Positions 322-12,678 of a stretch of DNA of 12,678 bases are shown one piece after another. The DNA is from Candidatus Woesearchaeota archaeon. Its GTDB lineage: Archaea > Nanobdellota > Nanobdellia > Woesearchaeales > GW2011-AR4. A model generated the notes under the pieces. The model ran no database searches. It was not told the DNA's origin and saw only the letters and a program-made list of their open reading frames with translations. The translations under genes were made by a program, and so were the position numbers. Where the stretch lies: contig DAOVKD010000007.1 in assembly GCA_030631975.1 (NCBI GenBank), forward strand, positions 1 through 12,678, read 5' to 3'. Position 1 is the stretch's first letter, and every line of letters begins with the position of its first letter.

Positions 322-330
322 TATGAATGC
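322..330. repeat. Target-site duplication, left flank of element copy 1
   Basis: The 9-mer tatgaatgc here matches tatgaatgt at 556-564 in eight of nine positions. Together they bracket the inverted-repeat ends of element copy 1. Confidence 0.65.
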
Positions 331-555
331 AGCTACATATCAAATAAGGGCTGTGCCTTTTTAGGGGAGGCGGGTGGGAAGAATAATGTTAAGTCTGAAA
401 TAAAAATGTGGCGTGTTGTTTACGAAATGATTTAAGAAATGATATCATGGTAGCCCATTTTGGCTTCGCCCTGCATGTGGCTATGCCGCATGCTCGCTTG
501 CAATACCGCTCTGGCACAGCCCTATTATCAAATTTTTCTTATGTAAGATGTAGCC
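331..555 (+). mobile_element. MITE-like structured element, copy 1 (about 225 bp)
   Basis: This is a non-coding segment related along its length to 1171-1385, in the same orientation. The ends are imperfect inverted repeats: GCTACAT (332-338) against ATGTAGC (548-554). The flanks are near-identical 9-mers, tatgaatgc (322-330) and tatgaatgt (556-564), consistent with a target-site duplication that has one change. Inside, GGGCTGTGCC (348-357) pairs perfectly with GGCACAGCCC (513-522). AAAATG-T-GGC (403-412) pairs with GCCCATTTT (453-461) around one bulged T. GCATGTGGC (473-481) pairs with GCCGCATGC (485-493) with a TAT loop. A G-run block, GGGGAGGCGGGTGGG (364-378), is identical in copy 2. No transposase is encoded, and reading frames are not conserved between copies. 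Confidence 0.8.
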
Positions 556-564
556 TATGAATGT
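556..564. repeat. Target-site duplication, right flank of element copy 1
   Basis: The 9-mer tatgaatgt is the partner of 322-330. The single mismatch at the last base suggests an older insertion than copy 2, whose duplication is perfect. Confidence 0.65.
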
Positions 565-581
565 CTAATAAAAACTAATCA

Positions 582-630
582 TCTTCATTTAACCAATTAT
601 AGAATCCTCTTTTTAGGATAAGGATGAAGA
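582..630. other. Nested inverted repeats in the gap between element copy 1 and the CBS gene
   Basis: TCTTCAT (582-588) is complementary to ATGAAGA (624-630). Between them ATCCT (604-608) pairs with AGGAT (615-619) around a T-rich loop. This is the only structure I see between 565 and 698. It could act in either strand's transcript, for example as a 3' end signal for the CBS gene, but nothing in the sequence decides this. Confidence 0.35.
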
Positions 631-667
631 AAAAAGTAAAGAGATTGTATAGTAGAAAATATATATC

Positions 668-686
668 ACAAAAACCCAAAAGTTTA
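668..686 (-). terminator. Possible T-rich terminator after the CBS gene
   Basis: Just beyond the minus-strand stop codon at 699-701, the transcript sense strand reads AACTTTTGGGTTTTTGTG. Runs of T on the sense strand are the usual archaeal intrinsic termination signal. The call rests on composition and position only. Confidence 0.35.
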
Positions 687-698
687 GTATCAAAATAT

Positions 699-1124
699 TC
701 AATATTCAGGTCTTGTGTATTCCTGTCTCCTATTGGCAGTAAGGCCTCTGACTGACAAATATTTGAGGTTTTTGGCTATGCTGTTTGCTGTTACTATACC
801 AACAATTTTGTTATTTTCAGTAATTATTAATCTCCGTATCTTATGTTGAGATATTTTTCTGCTGGCCTCTGCTATATCTTCATTTGCATCACTTGTTATT
901 ATGGGCTGGCTCATAATATCTTTTACTGTTAATTCATCAGGATTTCTTCCTTTTGCCACAATTTTCCTTAAAATATCCCTTTCAGTCATTATGCCAATAA
1001 CTTTGTTATTTTCTTCAACTAAGACAGAGCCAATTACTTTTTTGTCCATTATTCCTGCAGCTTCGGAAATGTTAGTATCAGAAGAGACTTTTGTTACATT
1101 ATGCATTATTTCTTTTACCCGCAT
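699..1124 (-). CDS. Two-CBS-domain protein
   Basis: A 141-residue protein made almost entirely of two CBS domains, roughly residues 7-60 and 67-122. The first carries the typical run VIGIMTERDILRK (42-54), and the second carries HKIRRLIITENNKIVGIVT (94-112). Paired CBS domains form a Bateman module that usually binds adenine nucleotides. Stand-alone archaeal versions are generally thought to sense energy state, but their partners are seldom known and none is visible here. The C-terminal tail (about 123-141) is basic and unrelated to CBS. The start codon lies about 26 bases from the TATA box centre with no Shine-Dalgarno sequence, so the mRNA is probably leaderless. The gene diverges from the PhoU/ATP synthase cluster and is bracketed by two copies of the mobile element. 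Confidence 0.9.
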   Translation of the reverse strand: MRVKEIMHNVTKVSSDTNISEAAGIMDKKVIGSVLVEENNKVIGIMTERDILRKIVAKGRNPDELTVKDIMSQPIITSDANEDIAEASRKISQHKIRRLIITENNKIVGIVTANSIAKNLKYLSVRGLTANRRQEYTRPEY

Positions 1125-1145
1125 AGTGATAGTGTTAAGGGGGTG

Positions 1146-1161
1146 TATATAAAAACTTTTT
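1146..1161 (-). promoter_or_regulatory. BRE/TATA promoter of the CBS gene (leaderless)
   Basis: The minus strand reads AAAAAG (1161-1156), then TTTTTATATA (1155-1146). From the TATA centre to the ATG at 1124 is about 26 bases, so transcription should start at or next to the start codon. The left target duplication of element copy 2 (1162-1170) directly abuts the putative BRE, so anything upstream of it is now element sequence. Confidence 0.55.
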
Positions 1162-1170
1162 TATTATAGT
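1162..1170. repeat. Target-site duplication, left flank of element copy 2
   Basis: The 9-mer tattatagt is repeated exactly at 1386-1394, directly outside the inverted-repeat ends of element copy 2. Confidence 0.85.
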
Positions 1171-1385
1171 GGCTGCGTTCAAAAAGTCAAGCTATGCCTT
1201 TTTTAGGGGAGGCGGGTGGGAAGAATCACGTTTAATCTGAAATTAAAATGCTGTGTATCTTCACAAAGTGTTTCTACTAACAAAATCAAGATGCAGCATT
1301 TTGTCTTGCCCTGCATGCGACGTAGTTGCATGCCCGCTTGCAATACCGCTTTGGCATAGCCGATTAAAATATTTTGAACGCAGCC
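1171..1385 (+). mobile_element. MITE-like structured element, copy 2 (215 bp)
   Basis: The terminal inverted repeats are perfect over 14 bases: GGCTGCGTTCAAAA (1171-1184) and TTTTGAACGCAGCC (1372-1385). They are flanked by an exact 9-bp duplication, tattatagt. Internal stems match those of copy 1 in order: GCTATGCC (1191-1198) with GGCATAGC (1353-1360), AAAATGCTG (1245-1253) with CAGCATTTT (1294-1302), and GCATGCGAC (1313-1321) with GTTGCATGC (1325-1333). The 5' G-run block (1206-1220) and a 3' block around CTTGCAATACCGCT (1337-1350) are conserved with copy 1. The GGCT..GTT.AA end and 9-bp duplication recall the IS903 group of the IS5 family, which suggests mobilisation in trans by such a transposase (inference). 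No transposase or shared ORF is present. Confidence 0.85.
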
Positions 1386-1394
1386 TATTATAGT
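1386..1394. repeat. Target-site duplication, right flank of element copy 2
   Basis: An exact copy of tattatagt at 1162-1170, immediately after the terminal GCAGCC of the element. Confidence 0.85.
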
Positions 1395-2864: not shown

Positions 2865-4718
2865 ATGTTAAGACCCTATGAAATGAGTAGTGTCATAATG
2901 ACGGGGCCAAATAAGTTTCAGGAGGATGTCATTAAAGAACTTCATAAGCTCAGGATACTTCATATTGTTGAGCATTCAAAAACTGATTTAGCGGATATAG
3001 GAAACCCATTAGAGAATGCAAATAAACTTTCTGAAACAATAGTTAAGGTAAGATCCTTGATTACAGCGCTAAATATAAAAAAGGGGGAAAATAAGTTTGA
3101 GCTTAAAAGAGACTTACCTGAAATATATGAGACTACAAAAAGGCTAAATGAGGGAGTAAGCAAAAATTCTGACGAATTAAAAAAAATTGAAGGGCTTATA
3201 TCAAAAAATCAGGCCATAAAGCATGAACTGGAAATTTTTAAAAATATTGATATTCCTCTTGAAGACCTTGCATCTTACAGCTCATTAGTCTATTTTACTG
3301 GTTATATGGGGGAGAGTAAAGTAATGGCTCTGAAAGAGGACTTATCAAAAATAACAAAAAAATTTATGTTATTAGAGGATGCTGTTAAAAAAAGAAGTTT
3401 TATAGTGTTGTTTGTTGATGTTGAAAGCAAAGAGCATGCAAGTAATATACTGCAGAAATTGAGTTTTTCTCCTGTGAACTTTACAGGCATAGGCAATTTC
3501 AAGGGAACTGCATCAAGCAATTTAGGAAAAATAGAAAAAGAAAATACAAAACTTGAAAATCAAAGGGATAACATTAAAAAACAAATAGAAAAACTTGGGC
3601 AGGAACACAAAGACTTTCTGATATGCGCTGAGGAGTTTTTAAGCCAGGAACTTGAAAAGGCTGAGGCTCCATTAAAATTTGCAGCAACAAAGAACGCTTT
3701 TTTGATAAAAGGGTGGGTTCCTACCGGACAATTAAGGAGCGCAATTAACAGGTTAAATAAAACCAGTAAAAACAAATTGTTTATACATTCTGAGCCGGCA
3801 AAAGAGGCGGATAATGTTCCTGTAAAGCTTAAGAATCAAAATTATGCAAAACCATTTGAGTTTTTTATGAACTTATATACACTGCCAAATTATAAGGAAA
3901 TTGATCCTACATTTTTTGTTTTTCTTACATTCCCATTGCTTTTTGGATTTATGCTGGGAGATTTTGGTTACGGGTTAGTTACCCTTATCCTGTTTATGAT
4001 GCTGAAAAAAAGAATGCCTAAAGCAAAGAATTTCTTTAGCATACTGATTTTTGCATCTTTAGCAACAATGTTTTTTGGCTTATTGTTTGGAGAGTTTTTT
4101 GGTTATGAAGAAATTGCTGGCTTTCATCTCCCCCATATACTTTCAAGATCGCATCAAATAAACGAATTGCTGTATTTAGCAATTGCTATAGGAGCAGCGC
4201 ATATAAATCTTGGTTTAATAATTGGTTTTGTTAACGAGCTTAAGTCGCATGGGTTTATGAAAGCATTGTGTGCAAAAGGAGGGTGGATTGTGCTGGAAAT
4301 AGGAATTGCGCTGCTGGCATTGTCATATTTCAAGATAATTGCTTTGCCGATTTATATTGGAGTTGTTTTCTTCCTTTTATCGCTGTTTATGCTGTTAAAG
4401 GGAGAGGGTATTAAGGGGCTTATAGAGCTTCCGGGCATATTTAGCAATACGTTATCCTATGCAAGGCTCATGGCAATTGGCTTGTCATCTGTTAAATTAG
4501 CAGAAGTAATAAATGAGTCTGCAGCAGAAATGTTTCATGGAGGAGGATTTTTAATACTTGCCGGAGTGCTTATTCTGGTAATTGGGCATATACTGAATAT
4601 AGGAATCGGAATGCTTGGAAGTTTTTTGCACTCATTAAGGCTGCATTATGTTGAGTTTTTTACAAAATTTTTCCAAGGTGGCGCTGAAAAGTACAAAGCG
4701 TTTGGGGAAAAACAATAA
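2865..4718 (+). CDS. atpI: A-type ATP synthase subunit I (membrane a-type subunit)
   Basis: A 617-residue protein, slightly short for the family. The N-terminal half (about 1-335) is soluble and contains two long coiled-coil stretches (about 80-125 and 215-260), forming the cytoplasmic arm that contacts the E/H stalks. The C-terminal half has about seven to eight membrane segments starting near TFFVFLTFPLLFGFMLGDFG. The motif LSYARLMAIGLSS carries Arg534, which corresponds to the essential Arg that faces the proteolipid glutamate in V- and A-type a subunits. With the K ring it forms the ion-translocating half-channels. GAGG about 12 bases upstream may serve as ribosome-binding site. It is followed by an A-rich spacer and the proteolipid gene. 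Confidence 0.95.
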   Translation: MLRPYEMSSVIMTGPNKFQEDVIKELHKLRILHIVEHSKTDLADIGNPLENANKLSETIVKVRSLITALNIKKGENKFELKRDLPEIYETTKRLNEGVSKNSDELKKIEGLISKNQAIKHELEIFKNIDIPLEDLASYSSLVYFTGYMGESKVMALKEDLSKITKKFMLLEDAVKKRSFIVLFVDVESKEHASNILQKLSFSPVNFTGIGNFKGTASSNLGKIEKENTKLENQRDNIKKQIEKLGQEHKDFLICAEEFLSQELEKAEAPLKFAATKNAFLIKGWVPTGQLRSAINRLNKTSKNKLFIHSEPAKEADNVPVKLKNQNYAKPFEFFMNLYTLPNYKEIDPTFFVFLTFPLLFGFMLGDFGYGLVTLILFMMLKKRMPKAKNFFSILIFASLATMFFGLLFGEFFGYEEIAGFHLPHILSRSHQINELLYLAIAIGAAHINLGLIIGFVNELKSHGFMKALCAKGGWIVLEIGIALLALSYFKIIALPIYIGVVFFLLSLFMLLKGEGIKGLIELPGIFSNTLSYARLMAIGLSSVKLAEVINESAAEMFHGGGFLILAGVLILVIGHILNIGIGMLGSFLHSLRLHYVEFFTKFFQGGAEKYKAFGEKQ

Positions 4719-4816
4719 TCAAAAAATAAATCATTGACAAAAATAATAATCGATAAAATTTAAAATAAGAAATTATAAAAATTATAAAAATAATTAACAA
4801 AAACAAAATGCAATAT
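4719..4816 (+). promoter_or_regulatory. A-rich spacer with candidate internal promoter before atpK
   Basis: This gap between atpI and atpK is almost all A and T, with very little G. Two overlapping-type TATA candidates, TTATAAAA at 4773-4780 and 4782-4789, would place a start near 4800-4810, just ahead of the atpK ribosome-binding site. Because the ring needs many copies of K per complex, an internal promoter here would make sense. In such A/T-rich sequence, however, TATA-like words arise by chance. Confidence 0.35.
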
Positions 4817-6700: not shown

Positions 6701-6942
6701 AATCACAAAATCAAAAATAATAATTAAAAAACAATAACAATAAAATAATTAATAATAAAACAATAAATCACAATCCAATAATAATAAAAAATAATCAGTT
6801 AAAAAATAGTTGACAATAAAATTAAAAAATAAAACAATTTTAAAAATTAAAAACTTAAAAAACAATAAGGGATTTTGCTTAAAAAATAAGATTTGAGAAT
6901 ACTCAGTAAGCATTTTTCCAATCGCTTTGAAAAAAATTTAAA
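6701..6942 (+). other. A-rich, G-poor spacer between atpC and the protease-like gene
   Basis: Positions 6701-6860 consist almost only of A, T and a few C in AATAA/CAATAA-type words, with A much more frequent than T on the + strand. From about 6870 the composition is more mixed. GCTTAAAAAATAAG (6877-6890) could be a TATA-like element for the next gene, and TGAG-AATA-CTCA forms a tiny hairpin near 6894-6905. No ORF, tRNA or recognised RNA is present. Confidence 0.55.
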
Positions 6943-8037
6943 ATGGGAGATTTAGGTTTTTTTGGTATTTTAAAACAAGGCAAGGAAATAGAGAAATACT
7001 CTGTTCCTAATGGCAGTGTAAAATTAGAAGTGCATTCGTTTGTTGAAAAAAAATTACTTAACGAAGAAATTTATTTGAACAGGTTTAAACCTTTGTATAA
7101 TCTTTTGCATAATAGCCTTAGAGAAACAATTGGGCTAATACAATCTAAATATGGCGCGCTTCCTGGAGAGTTGCAACCTGCTGAAAAGATTTGGTGTTTA
7201 TTTGTTTCTAGGGAAACCCTTCCTACTTTTAGTATGTGGGCTAGAAGAAGTGAAATGGGATTAATAATCCCGCTGGATTTATTAAATTTATCAGAAAATT
7301 ATAAAAATATGAAACACCACATGATGCATGAGTGTTTACATAGCTGCGCAAAAATGCATCATAAGGAAGAGGATGCAATACAAGAAATAAAAAAACATCA
7401 AGAAGAATTAAGGGCATCGTTGGAAAAATGCCAAGCGGAGACGCTGAATATTGTAAAATCTATTAAAGAATTTGGTGGCACCTATAACTATAACATAAAC
7501 AGGGAAGTTGATTTATTTACTCACGAGTTTTTAGTTCATTTTGGGAACTATATTGCGGATATAGGTATTGACACTATAGTTAGCTTACTGAATTTGGAAG
7601 AGTATATTGGAGTAGATTTAGATCTTACACAACGAGATAACAAAAACTTAGATTTATTAATTCCCTACCTAGAGGAAAATAAAAGCAAGATGAATCTTGG
7701 AGAGCTTAATTACATTGAATTTTGTATTTTAGTATGGAATATGCCTCTTTTTATTTTTCCGTATGTGTATAATAAAAACCATAGAAAAAAGGCAATAAAG
7801 CTAATAAGAGAGTATTTCAGGATTGTTAAAAAAATAGACCCCGAAGTGCAGAAACTTGTAAGAAGGATTTATGCTGGTTTTTTTAAGGTTATAAAGCCGC
7901 ATAAGATAGATTTATATGAATCAAACTTTGATGTTAAAAAAATAATACATACAGTAGAAAGTATTGATGCTGCTAAGGCATTATACACAAATTTGGTAAG
8001 AGATTTAGAATATTTAAGCTCGCATATAACTAAGTAG
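6943..8037 (+). CDS. HExxH-motif putative metallopeptidase within the ATP synthase operon
   Basis: A 364-residue protein that I do not recognise as a named family. Residues 124-135 read KHHMMHECLHSC, containing the zinc-protease signature HExxH (His129-Glu130, His133). About 55 residues later, NREVDLFTHEFLVHF (186-200) offers Glu188 and His194/Glu195/His199 as possible third ligands, so a gluzincin-like fold is plausible. Between them lies a Glu/Lys-rich helix (about 142-175). A C-terminal region with PLFIFPYVY (268-276) is hydrophobic but short. There is no signal peptide, so the protein is probably cytoplasmic. No Shine-Dalgarno sequence precedes the ATG. Subunit genes on both sides are intact, so this is an extra gene inserted into the conserved atpC-atpF junction, not a replacement. 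Peptidase activity and any role in ATP synthase assembly or turnover are unproven. Confidence 0.75.
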   Translation: MGDLGFFGILKQGKEIEKYSVPNGSVKLEVHSFVEKKLLNEEIYLNRFKPLYNLLHNSLRETIGLIQSKYGALPGELQPAEKIWCLFVSRETLPTFSMWARRSEMGLIIPLDLLNLSENYKNMKHHMMHECLHSCAKMHHKEEDAIQEIKKHQEELRASLEKCQAETLNIVKSIKEFGGTYNYNINREVDLFTHEFLVHFGNYIADIGIDTIVSLLNLEEYIGVDLDLTQRDNKNLDLLIPYLEENKSKMNLGELNYIEFCILVWNMPLFIFPYVYNKNHRKKAIKLIREYFRIVKKIDPEVQKLVRRIYAGFFKVIKPHKIDLYESNFDVKKIIHTVESIDAAKALYTNLVRDLEYLSSHITK

Positions 8038-8405
8038 ATTAAGCGTTAATGCTCTCTGAACTCATTAACCATATATTAATGCAAAAATAGGTGTTAAGAA
8101 CTGTTTGGAAACAGTTGGAAGTGTTTGCAAAACACTAAACAGTTAGTACTCATAAATCAAAATCATTAAATAACAAAAATGACGAAACAACAAAAACAAT
8201 AAATAAAAAACAATGAAACAATCAATAATAGAATTAAAAAAAACAATAATCAACAATGAAAGGATTAACAATAAAAACAATAATGAATAACTAAAATAAA
8301 TAACTGAAAACAATGCCCAATAAAAAATTACAATGAAAAACAATCAATAATAAATTAAACAATAAAAAAATTACAATAATTAAAATAAAAGAATAAAATA
8401 AAAAA
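8038..8405 (+). other. Long gene-free spacer: hairpins, then A-rich CAAT-repeat tract
   Basis: The first part (8038-8150) holds clustered inverted repeats. GTTAATG (8045-8051) pairs with CATTAAC (8063-8069), followed by the hairpin set at 8099-8144. The rest (about 8151-8405) is a G- and T-poor tract on the + strand in which the tetramer CAAT recurs about fifteen times, mostly as ACAATAA, ACAATGA or ACAATCA. This would be an unstructured mRNA leader directly before atpF, which lacks a Shine-Dalgarno sequence. The T-rich complement gives a long hydrophobic minus-strand reading frame that I regard as an artefact. Confidence 0.6.
8099..8144. repeat. Alternative hairpin cluster after the protease-like gene
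   Basis: AACTGTTT (8099-8106) is complementary to AAACAGTT at 8109-8116 and to a second exact copy of AAACAGTT at 8137-8144. Between the two copies AGTGTTT (8120-8126) pairs with AAACACT (8130-8136). The first arm can therefore form either a tight hairpin or a longer stem enclosing the middle hairpin. It may mark the mRNA 3' end of the preceding gene or act as a processing site. Confidence 0.55.
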
Positions 8406-11989: not shown

Positions 11990-12616
11990 ATGGTCCAGGA
12001 AGTAAAACCAACAAGAAGCGAACTGTTAAAGGTAAAAAACCAGATTAAATTAGCTATATCCGGGCATTCGTTATTGAAGAAGAAAAGGGATGGATTAATT
12101 CTTGAGTTTTTTGAGATTTTGAAAAAGGCAAAGACATTAAGGGAAGAATTAGTCAATGAATACAGAATTGCATTGGAAAAAATGAATATTGCAAGAACAT
12201 TGGAAGGAGATTTAAAAGTAAAATCAATTGCTATGGCAATTAAGGAAATTCCAGACATAGACTTAACAACAAAAAACATTATGGGGGTAAAAGTTCCGAA
12301 AATTAAAGGCGGCGAGATAAAAAAGGCGTTTATGGAGCGCGGTTATGGAATTTATAATTCATCTGCTATTGATGAGGCTGCTGCTGCTTATGAAACAGTT
12401 GTTGAAAAGATATTATTGGCAGCTGAAGTTGAGACATCAATGAGAAAACTGCTTAATGAAATAGAGAAGACAAAAAGAAGGGTTAATGCTCTGGAGTTTG
12501 TTGTCATGCCCAGATTAAACAATATTTCCTCATTTATAAGGCTAAGGCTGGAAGAGATGGAAAGAGAGAATATCTTCAGGATGAAGAGGATAAAAGCTAA
12601 AGTCCAGGTTCAATAA
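11990..12616 (+). CDS. atpD: A-type ATP synthase subunit D (central rotor shaft)
   Basis: A 208-residue protein with the long antiparallel coiled coil of the D family, which turns inside the A3B3 head. The N-terminus VKPTRSELLKVKNQIKLA (5-22), followed by GHSLLKKKRDGLILEFFEI, is a textbook D signature. The C-terminal helix contains KRRVNALEFVVMPRLNNI (about 161-178), also diagnostic. The start is 31 bases after atpB with only a weak GGA upstream. It is the last gene in the window. No small subunit G gene is visible, and the remaining 62 bases are A-rich without an ORF. Confidence 0.96.
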   Translation: MVQEVKPTRSELLKVKNQIKLAISGHSLLKKKRDGLILEFFEILKKAKTLREELVNEYRIALEKMNIARTLEGDLKVKSIAMAIKEIPDIDLTTKNIMGVKVPKIKGGEIKKAFMERGYGIYNSSAIDEAAAAYETVVEKILLAAEVETSMRKLLNEIEKTKRRVNALEFVVMPRLNNISSFIRLRLEEMERENIFRMKRIKAKVQVQ

Positions 12617-12678
12617 AAATAAACAATAAAAAAATAATAATATGTTTTGATTGTGAACAAAAGAAATTTTTCTTATTA
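12617..12678. other. A-rich tail after atpD
   Basis: An AATAA-rich stretch like the other operon spacers, then a mixed segment containing the palindrome AAGAAATTTTTCTT near 12660-12674. A T-run there might contribute to termination, but the window ends too soon to judge. The ATG at 12642 is followed by a stop after one codon. Confidence 0.4.

Follow-up and report, generated by a model that had tools for sequence, protein, structure and literature searches.

The window, meaning the whole stretch of 12,678 nucleotides that was analysed, is contig C23 of a 937,093-base, 186-contig assembly that is 64% complete. From their translations, and by Pfam for ATP-synt_F, we read its genes as a V-type ATPase operon. 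Two copies of a dispersed repeat lie at one end of the window, one on each side of a CBS-domain gene, and each encloses a structured core with helices P1 to P4. The features are as follows.

322..330, no strand: left target-site duplication of copy 1, TATGAATGC; its right counterpart is TATGAATGT, 8 of 9 positions identical
331..555, + strand: element copy 1, end type E, AGCTACATATC...GATGTAGCC
348..521, + strand: structured core of copy 1; covariance model R1, 161.2 bits, with this copy among R1's own 26 rows
349..357, + strand: helix P1 of copy 1, 5' strand, pairing with 513-521
364..378, + strand: conserved G-rich box of copy 1, GGGGAGGCGGGTGGG, which includes the 5' strand of P2
403..461, + strand: helix P3 of copy 1, apical loop variable
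473..493, + strand: hairpin P4 of copy 1, 9 bp with a 3-nt loop
513..521, + strand: helix P1 of copy 1, 3' strand
556..564, no strand: right target-site duplication of copy 1
699..1124, - strand: CBS-domain gene between the two insertions, context outside the element
1146..1153, + strand: TATA-like box TATATAAA upstream of copy 2; the regular-expression matches end 17 and 19 nt from the left end
1162..1170, no strand: left target-site duplication of copy 2, TATTATAGT, exact over 9 bp
1171..1385, + strand: element copy 2, end type A, GGCTGCGTTCAAAA...TTTTGAACGCAGCC
1189..1361, + strand: structured core of copy 2; R1, 194.8 bits, this copy also being among R1's 26 rows
1190..1198, + strand: helix P1 of copy 2, 5' strand, pairing with 1353-1361
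1206..1220, + strand: conserved G-rich box of copy 2, GGGGAGGCGGGTGGG
1245..1302, + strand: helix P3 of copy 2, apical loop variable
1313..1333, + strand: hairpin P4 of copy 2, 9 bp with a 3-nt loop
1353..1361, + strand: helix P1 of copy 2, 3' strand
1386..1394, no strand: right target-site duplication of copy 2, TATTATAGT, exact

Elsewhere in the window, A-rich repeats of the type AACAATAA occupy spacers of the ATPase region (4708-4803, 6710-6870, 8172-8404 and 12616-12642), and these spacers resemble each other. Three predicted proteins in or beside that region, of 290, 137 and 364 amino acids (1577-2449, 2450-2863 and 6943-8037), gave no Pfam match at E 0.001.

The initial annotation had described internal folds kept through compensatory change, beginning with a G-C to A-T swap in the inner stem. 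The swap is present, with GCTGTGCC (350-357) facing GGCACAGC (513-520) in copy 1 and GCTATGCC (1191-1198) facing GGCATAGC (1353-1360) in copy 2, and the middle stem (403-461; 1245-1302) likewise still pairs despite its differences in sequence. Pairing is also retained in the 9-bp hairpin P4, but the tally of one swap and two wobble changes needs correction: between copies 1 and 2 two pairs have changed on both sides (U-A to C-G and G-C to A-U) and one has gone from G-C to G.U. The minimum free energy of each copy is below that of all 200 of its dinucleotide shuffles (z -3.4 for copy 1, -6.5 for copy 2). The two copies carry different ends and different target duplications, which suggests that they inserted independently on the two sides of the CBS-domain gene; a composite transposon built around that gene was rejected on the same grounds.

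Within the genome, blastn returned 42 matches for copy 1 and 48 for copy 2, a few of them being two pieces of a single copy. The covariance model R1, built from 26 full-length copies of the genome itself with helices P1-P4, matched 59 sites there, 77 in G005, 8 in G001, 6 in G003 and 4 in G004, and none in the genus mate G002. In the order-wide search with a covariance model, 6 of 352 genomes matched, namely the genome itself, four genus mates and G220, a member of another family of the same order that holds two divergent copies. A second model, R2, with stricter filters gave a single match among 378 genomes of the class, in the genome itself. These counts are lower bounds, given the stricter filters of the wide searches and the position of several copies at contig ends. 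A pattern scan over 84,980 genomes returned 36 stretches, 31 in JACPMQ01, 4 in JADFLA01 and one on a bacterial contig (L214), which was taken as a chance hit, the covariance model giving no match to it. The pattern scan found nothing in viral contigs, and phage records compared with positions 1-2400 of the window gave no match. The matches in four genus mates and those in G220 exclude the possibility that the two loci have no homologues elsewhere, and the family is nearly restricted to the genus. Some 60-77 copies per roughly 1-Mb genome is a heavy load for reduced archaea.

The suggestion that this is an undescribed family holds up against Rfam. No Rfam model matched the window above its curated cut-off, permissive thresholds giving E values of 5.7 and 0.21 at best, below the cut-off, and in 15 related loci nothing matched the core, the hits there being one RNase P RNA gene and three tRNA genes elsewhere in the loci. 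Among the matches listed for literature on MITEs, structured RNAs and transposable elements of Woesearchaeota or DPANN, on modular palindromic repeats and on promoter-targeted archaeal MITEs, none describes this family, which is weak evidence drawn mostly from open papers.

The outer parts of the repeats are those of DNA transposons. Both ends could be recognised in 26 elements of the genome with end types A, B or E, and 17 of these have a target duplication, mostly of 9 bp, under a rule demanding at least 7 exact positions or at most one mismatch in at least 8; the other 9 have none by this rule, and mismatched pairings of flanks gave 0 of 650. In G005, 15 of the 17 elements with both type-X ends are flanked by a duplication of 7-8 bp, one of them mismatched, the mismatched-pairing control having covered only the first genome. 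Duplications were scored for these end types, A, B, E and X. Terminal inverted repeats are found in the 26 elements just mentioned and, among 44 examined G005 copies, in 17 with X1/X2 and 17 with Y1/Y2 ends, and the elements measure about 180-380 bp. Type A ends also occur without a core, as pairs on contigs C37 and C141 and as a single end on C29. Contig C34 of the same assembly carries an insertion sequence of about 890 bp that encodes a 276-residue DDE_Tnp_1 transposase between the ends GGCTCAGTAGAAAA and TTTTCTACTAAGCC; compared with the type-X ends of G005, these show 1 and 2 differences in 14 bases. PF01609 matched two genes of the genome, both on C34. Among the genus genomes this transposase has one distant relative, in G003 (28% identity); none like it was found in G005, and no transposase was found that matches ends A-E or Y.

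The inverted-repeat ends together with the target duplications indicate that the copies move as DNA, in the manner of MITEs. Of the proposal of a mobile structured RNA, mobility is therefore upheld, by way of DNA transposition with terminal inverted repeats and duplications of about 8 or 9 bp; for movement as RNA, a reverse transcriptase (PF00078, RVT_1) was sought and found in none of the six genus assemblies, all incomplete. Two other types of element were considered. Transposases of the Y1 type (HUH, Y1_Tnp) occur in 3 of the 6 incomplete genus genomes, and a core lies near only one of six Y1 loci, which speaks against a REP/RAYT element. A 13-nt stretch, GACTAAAGTCCGC, that by eye short-form cores share with a palindrome next to the Y1 gene of contig C174 was discarded, since the hairpin is not conserved among core variants. 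An integron attC site seems unlikely given that the copies are dispersed and carry 8-9-bp duplications.

The shortest cores (90-96 nt, in G001 and G004) are built from P1, a box of the type GGGGAGGYGGGYGGG, a short P3 and, on the 3' side, a segment around GTCCGCTCTGG able to form P2 with the G-rich box. Copies of the first genome have a longer P3, and slightly more than half of them also have the P4 hairpin. Covariation was counted in two alignments. A3 holds 26 full-length copies of that genome, one of them degenerate; A5 holds 28 chosen short forms (8 from G000, 6 from G001, 6 from G005, 4 from G004, 2 from G003 and 2 from G220) and omits copies with P4-like or extra hairpins. A further alignment, A2, was kept out of the counts because short forms were misaligned at its 3' end. 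In A3, 94.6% of 1,014 cells are paired, as against 32-45% in slid controls, and 10 of 39 pairs have changed on both sides, a number that none of 500 shuffles reaches. In A5, 95.2% of cells are paired, two-sided changes are seen in 10 of 21 pairs (2 of 500 shuffles), and covariation scores 0.312 as against 0.144 for shuffled alignments (0 of 500); both the shuffled and the slid controls ignore phylogeny. The cross-species covariation comes from P1 and P3, with P4 contributing in A3, and no pair of P2 has changed on both sides in either alignment, its pairing register in G005 being ambiguous. A conserved fold of 90 nt or more thus makes up the interior, with helices that covary both within a species and from one species to another. 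This agrees with the structured interior first proposed and excludes an absence of covariation in a larger alignment: in tests blind to kinship, paired columns covary, as in structured RNAs, more than in every or almost every one of 500 shuffles, and more than in the slid controls.

The G-rich box was also considered as a G-quadruplex and this was rejected, its runs being interrupted in many G005 copies. Some copies contain additional hairpins. Extra units lie in the apical loops of some P3 helices (L036, 609-944; L028, 1504-1697; L123, L186 and L185), by eye about three in tandem in one copy, as if small palindromes insert. Also by eye, two G003 loci (L146 and L151) have a hairpin unit of about 35-40 nt, GTGAACGCGACGAG...TCGCTCGCAATTCAC, between P1 and the G-rich box, upstream of the covariance-model match, and the P4 region of L136 holds a related unit.

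How the parts of the core are combined was analysed in 51 of the 59 matches of the genome (53 were taken, and the degenerate C87 and C147:112 omitted). The classes of the J2/3 segment and of the P3 apical loop occur in many combinations. The 5' base of P1 is independent of the J2/3, P3, apical-loop and P4 types (p 0.44-1.0) and tied to the 3' base of P1 at the far end of the core (mutual information 0.70, p 0.0005). It is also tied to the end types, and since P1 follows the end type, its C-G/U-A switch may be a single old event. Other associations persist. The 5' end type goes with P3 bases (p 0.01 and 0.0005) and with the apical-loop type (p 0.02); the 3' end type is linked to a single P3 base (p 0.01) and to J2/3 (p 0.03); J2/3 is linked in turn to the apical loop (p 0.013) and to P3 (p 0.008 and 0.0065); and the apical loop is linked to the P3 bases (p 0.0005 and 0.0085). 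The shuffling of loops is strong and incomplete. A PHI-type test for recombination on A3 gave p 0.0005. When eight informative paired columns of A3 were ranked by linkage against 2,654 other pairs of columns separated by 20 or more, four (4-177, 65-113, 74-106 and 136-146) stood at or above percentile 0.999 and a fifth (135-147) at 0.984; the remaining three (66-112, 7-174 and 75-105) were unremarkable (0.58, 0.41 and 0.10, respectively). The copies have thus reassorted their loops and kept their stems paired, an unusual combination, and ectopic recombination or gene conversion among copies would account for the shuffling.

Gene conversion is equally part of an alternative in which these are ordinary MITE palindromes, their pairing inherited from inverted repeats and spread by ectopic conversion, with no selection on the fold. 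Conversion among copies is indeed likely, several modules are linked, independent events in P1 are few, and MITE transcripts are reported to form stable stem-loops (PMC10969869). However, pairs of P1, P3 and P4 change on both sides, some of them to several pair types, and those of P1 and P3 do so across species; moreover, the four paired columns head the linkage ranking although recombination has broken the linkage around them. We regard descent without selection as improbable, and a fold kept by selection as the better reading.

The ends are exchangeable as well. By regular expression, both ends of the 51 copies are of type A in 10, B in 17, E in 2 and C or D in 8, the last two being hard to distinguish; two copies are hybrids (B/A and E/C), 5 have one unrecognised end and 7 have neither end recognised. 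In G005, where arms were counted in 44 of 77 copies, types X and Y occur, 9 of the 44 copies are mixed or flipped, and one arm is unclassified; a G003 locus (L156) shows, by eye, ends of a further kind. At four orthologous intergenic sites a copy is present in each of two species (L059/L153, L020/L143, L054/L152 and L146/L138). At L146/L138 both flanks align and the core is inverted between its P1 borders. The core is also found at orthologous sites without recognisable ends. That one core should be shared by several kinds of transposon end and also occur outside them is unusual; the core is probably older than its present ends, and would have gained new ones by recombination at its borders, that is, at P1. 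A candidate empty site was rejected: the gene found after the core in L020/L143 has no core upstream of it in G003, but the upstream context there is different, so that this locus fixes no borders. At C96:1-300 (L128) the flanks are near-perfect inverted repeats of each other, either an assembly artefact or a large palindrome.

The initial annotation left open whether the folded form acts as an RNA or as a hairpin in single-stranded DNA, and here the strand is informative. Non-Watson-Crick cells are G.U rather than A.C by 115 to 17 in A3, 111 to 18 in alignment A4 and 61 to 3 in A5. Counting pair positions with at least one such cell gives 19:13 in A3 and 11:3 in A5, and removing the commonest pair per position leaves 51:17 and 19:3, respectively. 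By helix, the A3 counts are 45:0 in P2, 44:9 in P3, 20:2 in P4 (2:2 without the commonest pair) and 6:6 in P1, which alone shows no strand bias. The + strand also has the lower minimum free energy in 50 of 52 cores of the genome (it is worse in one) and in 16 of 17 cores of other genomes. The G.U excess and the better fold of the + strand favour a + strand RNA; from these sequence patterns the core is probably an RNA, and an RNA function is likely.

A strand-specific role of single-stranded DNA would still fit part of these data. The fold might work at the DNA level, single-stranded or as a cruciform, and be recognised during transposition or recombination in the manner of attC or REP, with RNA uninvolved. 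A strand-specific DNA fold would likewise favour G.T over A.C, and the unbiased P1, the flip of the core at L146/L138 and the mixed or flipped arms in G005 all agree with such a role. Duplications of 8-9 bp and DDE-type ends suggest, however, transposases that work on terminal repeats and not on the core, and HUH enzymes are found in half of the genus genomes with a core near one of their six loci. This alternative is unlikely, and is the most probable of the three that we weighed.

The positions of the insertions bear on how a core would be transcribed. In G005, the motif TTTAWA occurs 8-30 nt outside 13 of 17 type-X elements, in all 13 cases at 13-16 nt, as against 12.8% of 4,000 non-ORF positions; in the first genome a looser TATA motif lies at this distance of 8-30 nt from 20 of 28 insertions with A, B or E ends, mostly at 14-19 nt, as against a background of 21.4%, the search interval and both motifs having been picked after viewing the flanks. 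The G005 sample is 17 of 18 listed copies, one with a left type-X end only; the other is 28 of 53 copies, two without a left flank, and duplications were judged on 26 of those 28. This tight spacing of 13-19 nt to TATA-like boxes suggests integration directed to archaeal promoters. The boxes lie on either side of the elements (G005, 8 left and 7 right; first genome, 10 left and 14 right), so that many copies would be read from the other strand.

That two-sided placement of boxes around end-bearing copies weighs against another alternative, in which the core is a host cis-regulatory RNA, a leader or intercistronic element, that transposon ends captured later. In its favour, cores without recognised ends occur at orthologous loci in four species pairs, and among the 19 copies outside G000 and G005, 8 have a same-strand ORF that ends -2 to 19 nt upstream (mechanical ORF calls). 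Nevertheless, those 19 copies have no consistent downstream gene, two of them face the end of an opposite-strand ORF at 20-21 nt, and orientation differs at one orthologous site. We consider a captured host RNA the least probable of the three alternatives. In one G001 locus (L160) a core (1501-1590, - strand) lies 46 nt upstream of an archaeal RNase P RNA gene (1110-1454) on the same strand.

Based on the above data, we propose that the repeats are, with good likelihood, non-autonomous DNA transposons (MITEs) with a structured core in a woesearchaeal/nanoarchaeal genus. DDE transposases encoded elsewhere would act on the terminal inverted repeats and integrate the element with an 8-9-bp duplication, in many cases at 13-19 nt from a TATA-like box, and copies would thereby come to lie at promoters and in leaders. 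Between the ends, the closing helix P1 would enclose the G-rich box with P2, P3 and an optional P4, a fold that may be kept because the core is transcribed as RNA. What this RNA would do is a matter for a more tentative suggestion, and the role that we favour is the following: by folding, or by being processed, within the leader or trailer of a host transcript, it could make insertions beside promoters tolerable. Equally speculative at this stage is the idea of an RNA module that spreads via borrowed ends, the same core being found in at least four clearly different repeat groups (A/B/E, C/D, X and Y), apparently flipped or re-armed at its closing helix, its loops recombining like parts of a kit, and delivered to TATA promoters that would transcribe it. 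A fold kept amid exchanged loops and ends gives covariation an internal control, as few RNA families do, and the family allows a test of whether RNAs are carried by non-autonomous elements to the elements' own advantage.

Structured sequences are tied to mobile elements in other systems too, such as the omega RNA of IS200/IS605 and REP/RAYT. Unlike in those, the Y1 genes here lie mostly away from the cores, and the elements have DDE-type ends and target duplications. Prokaryotic MITEs such as the Correia elements resemble the family in being short, with terminal inverted repeats, target duplications and frequent positions near promoters, and inversion and RNase III processing have been reported for Correia elements (PMC10969869); they differ from the present family, in which several end types share one core, inner helices covary across species and loops are largely exchangeable. 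The BOX elements of Streptococcus pneumoniae are, by description, a likewise modular interspersed repeat with a predicted RNA fold, and are transcribed in 5' and 3' extensions of operons (PMC3049150). The modular part of BOX is boxB, which may be present or absent and varies in number, whereas here modularity consists of discrete loop alternatives and exchanged ends. Finally, insertion sequences of Wolbachia are reported to be inverted by recombination between their inverted repeats (PMC3004938), the interior being flipped as in L138/L146; there, whole insertion sequences are turned around, whereas the unit inverted here is a core that a helix of about 9 bp encloses.
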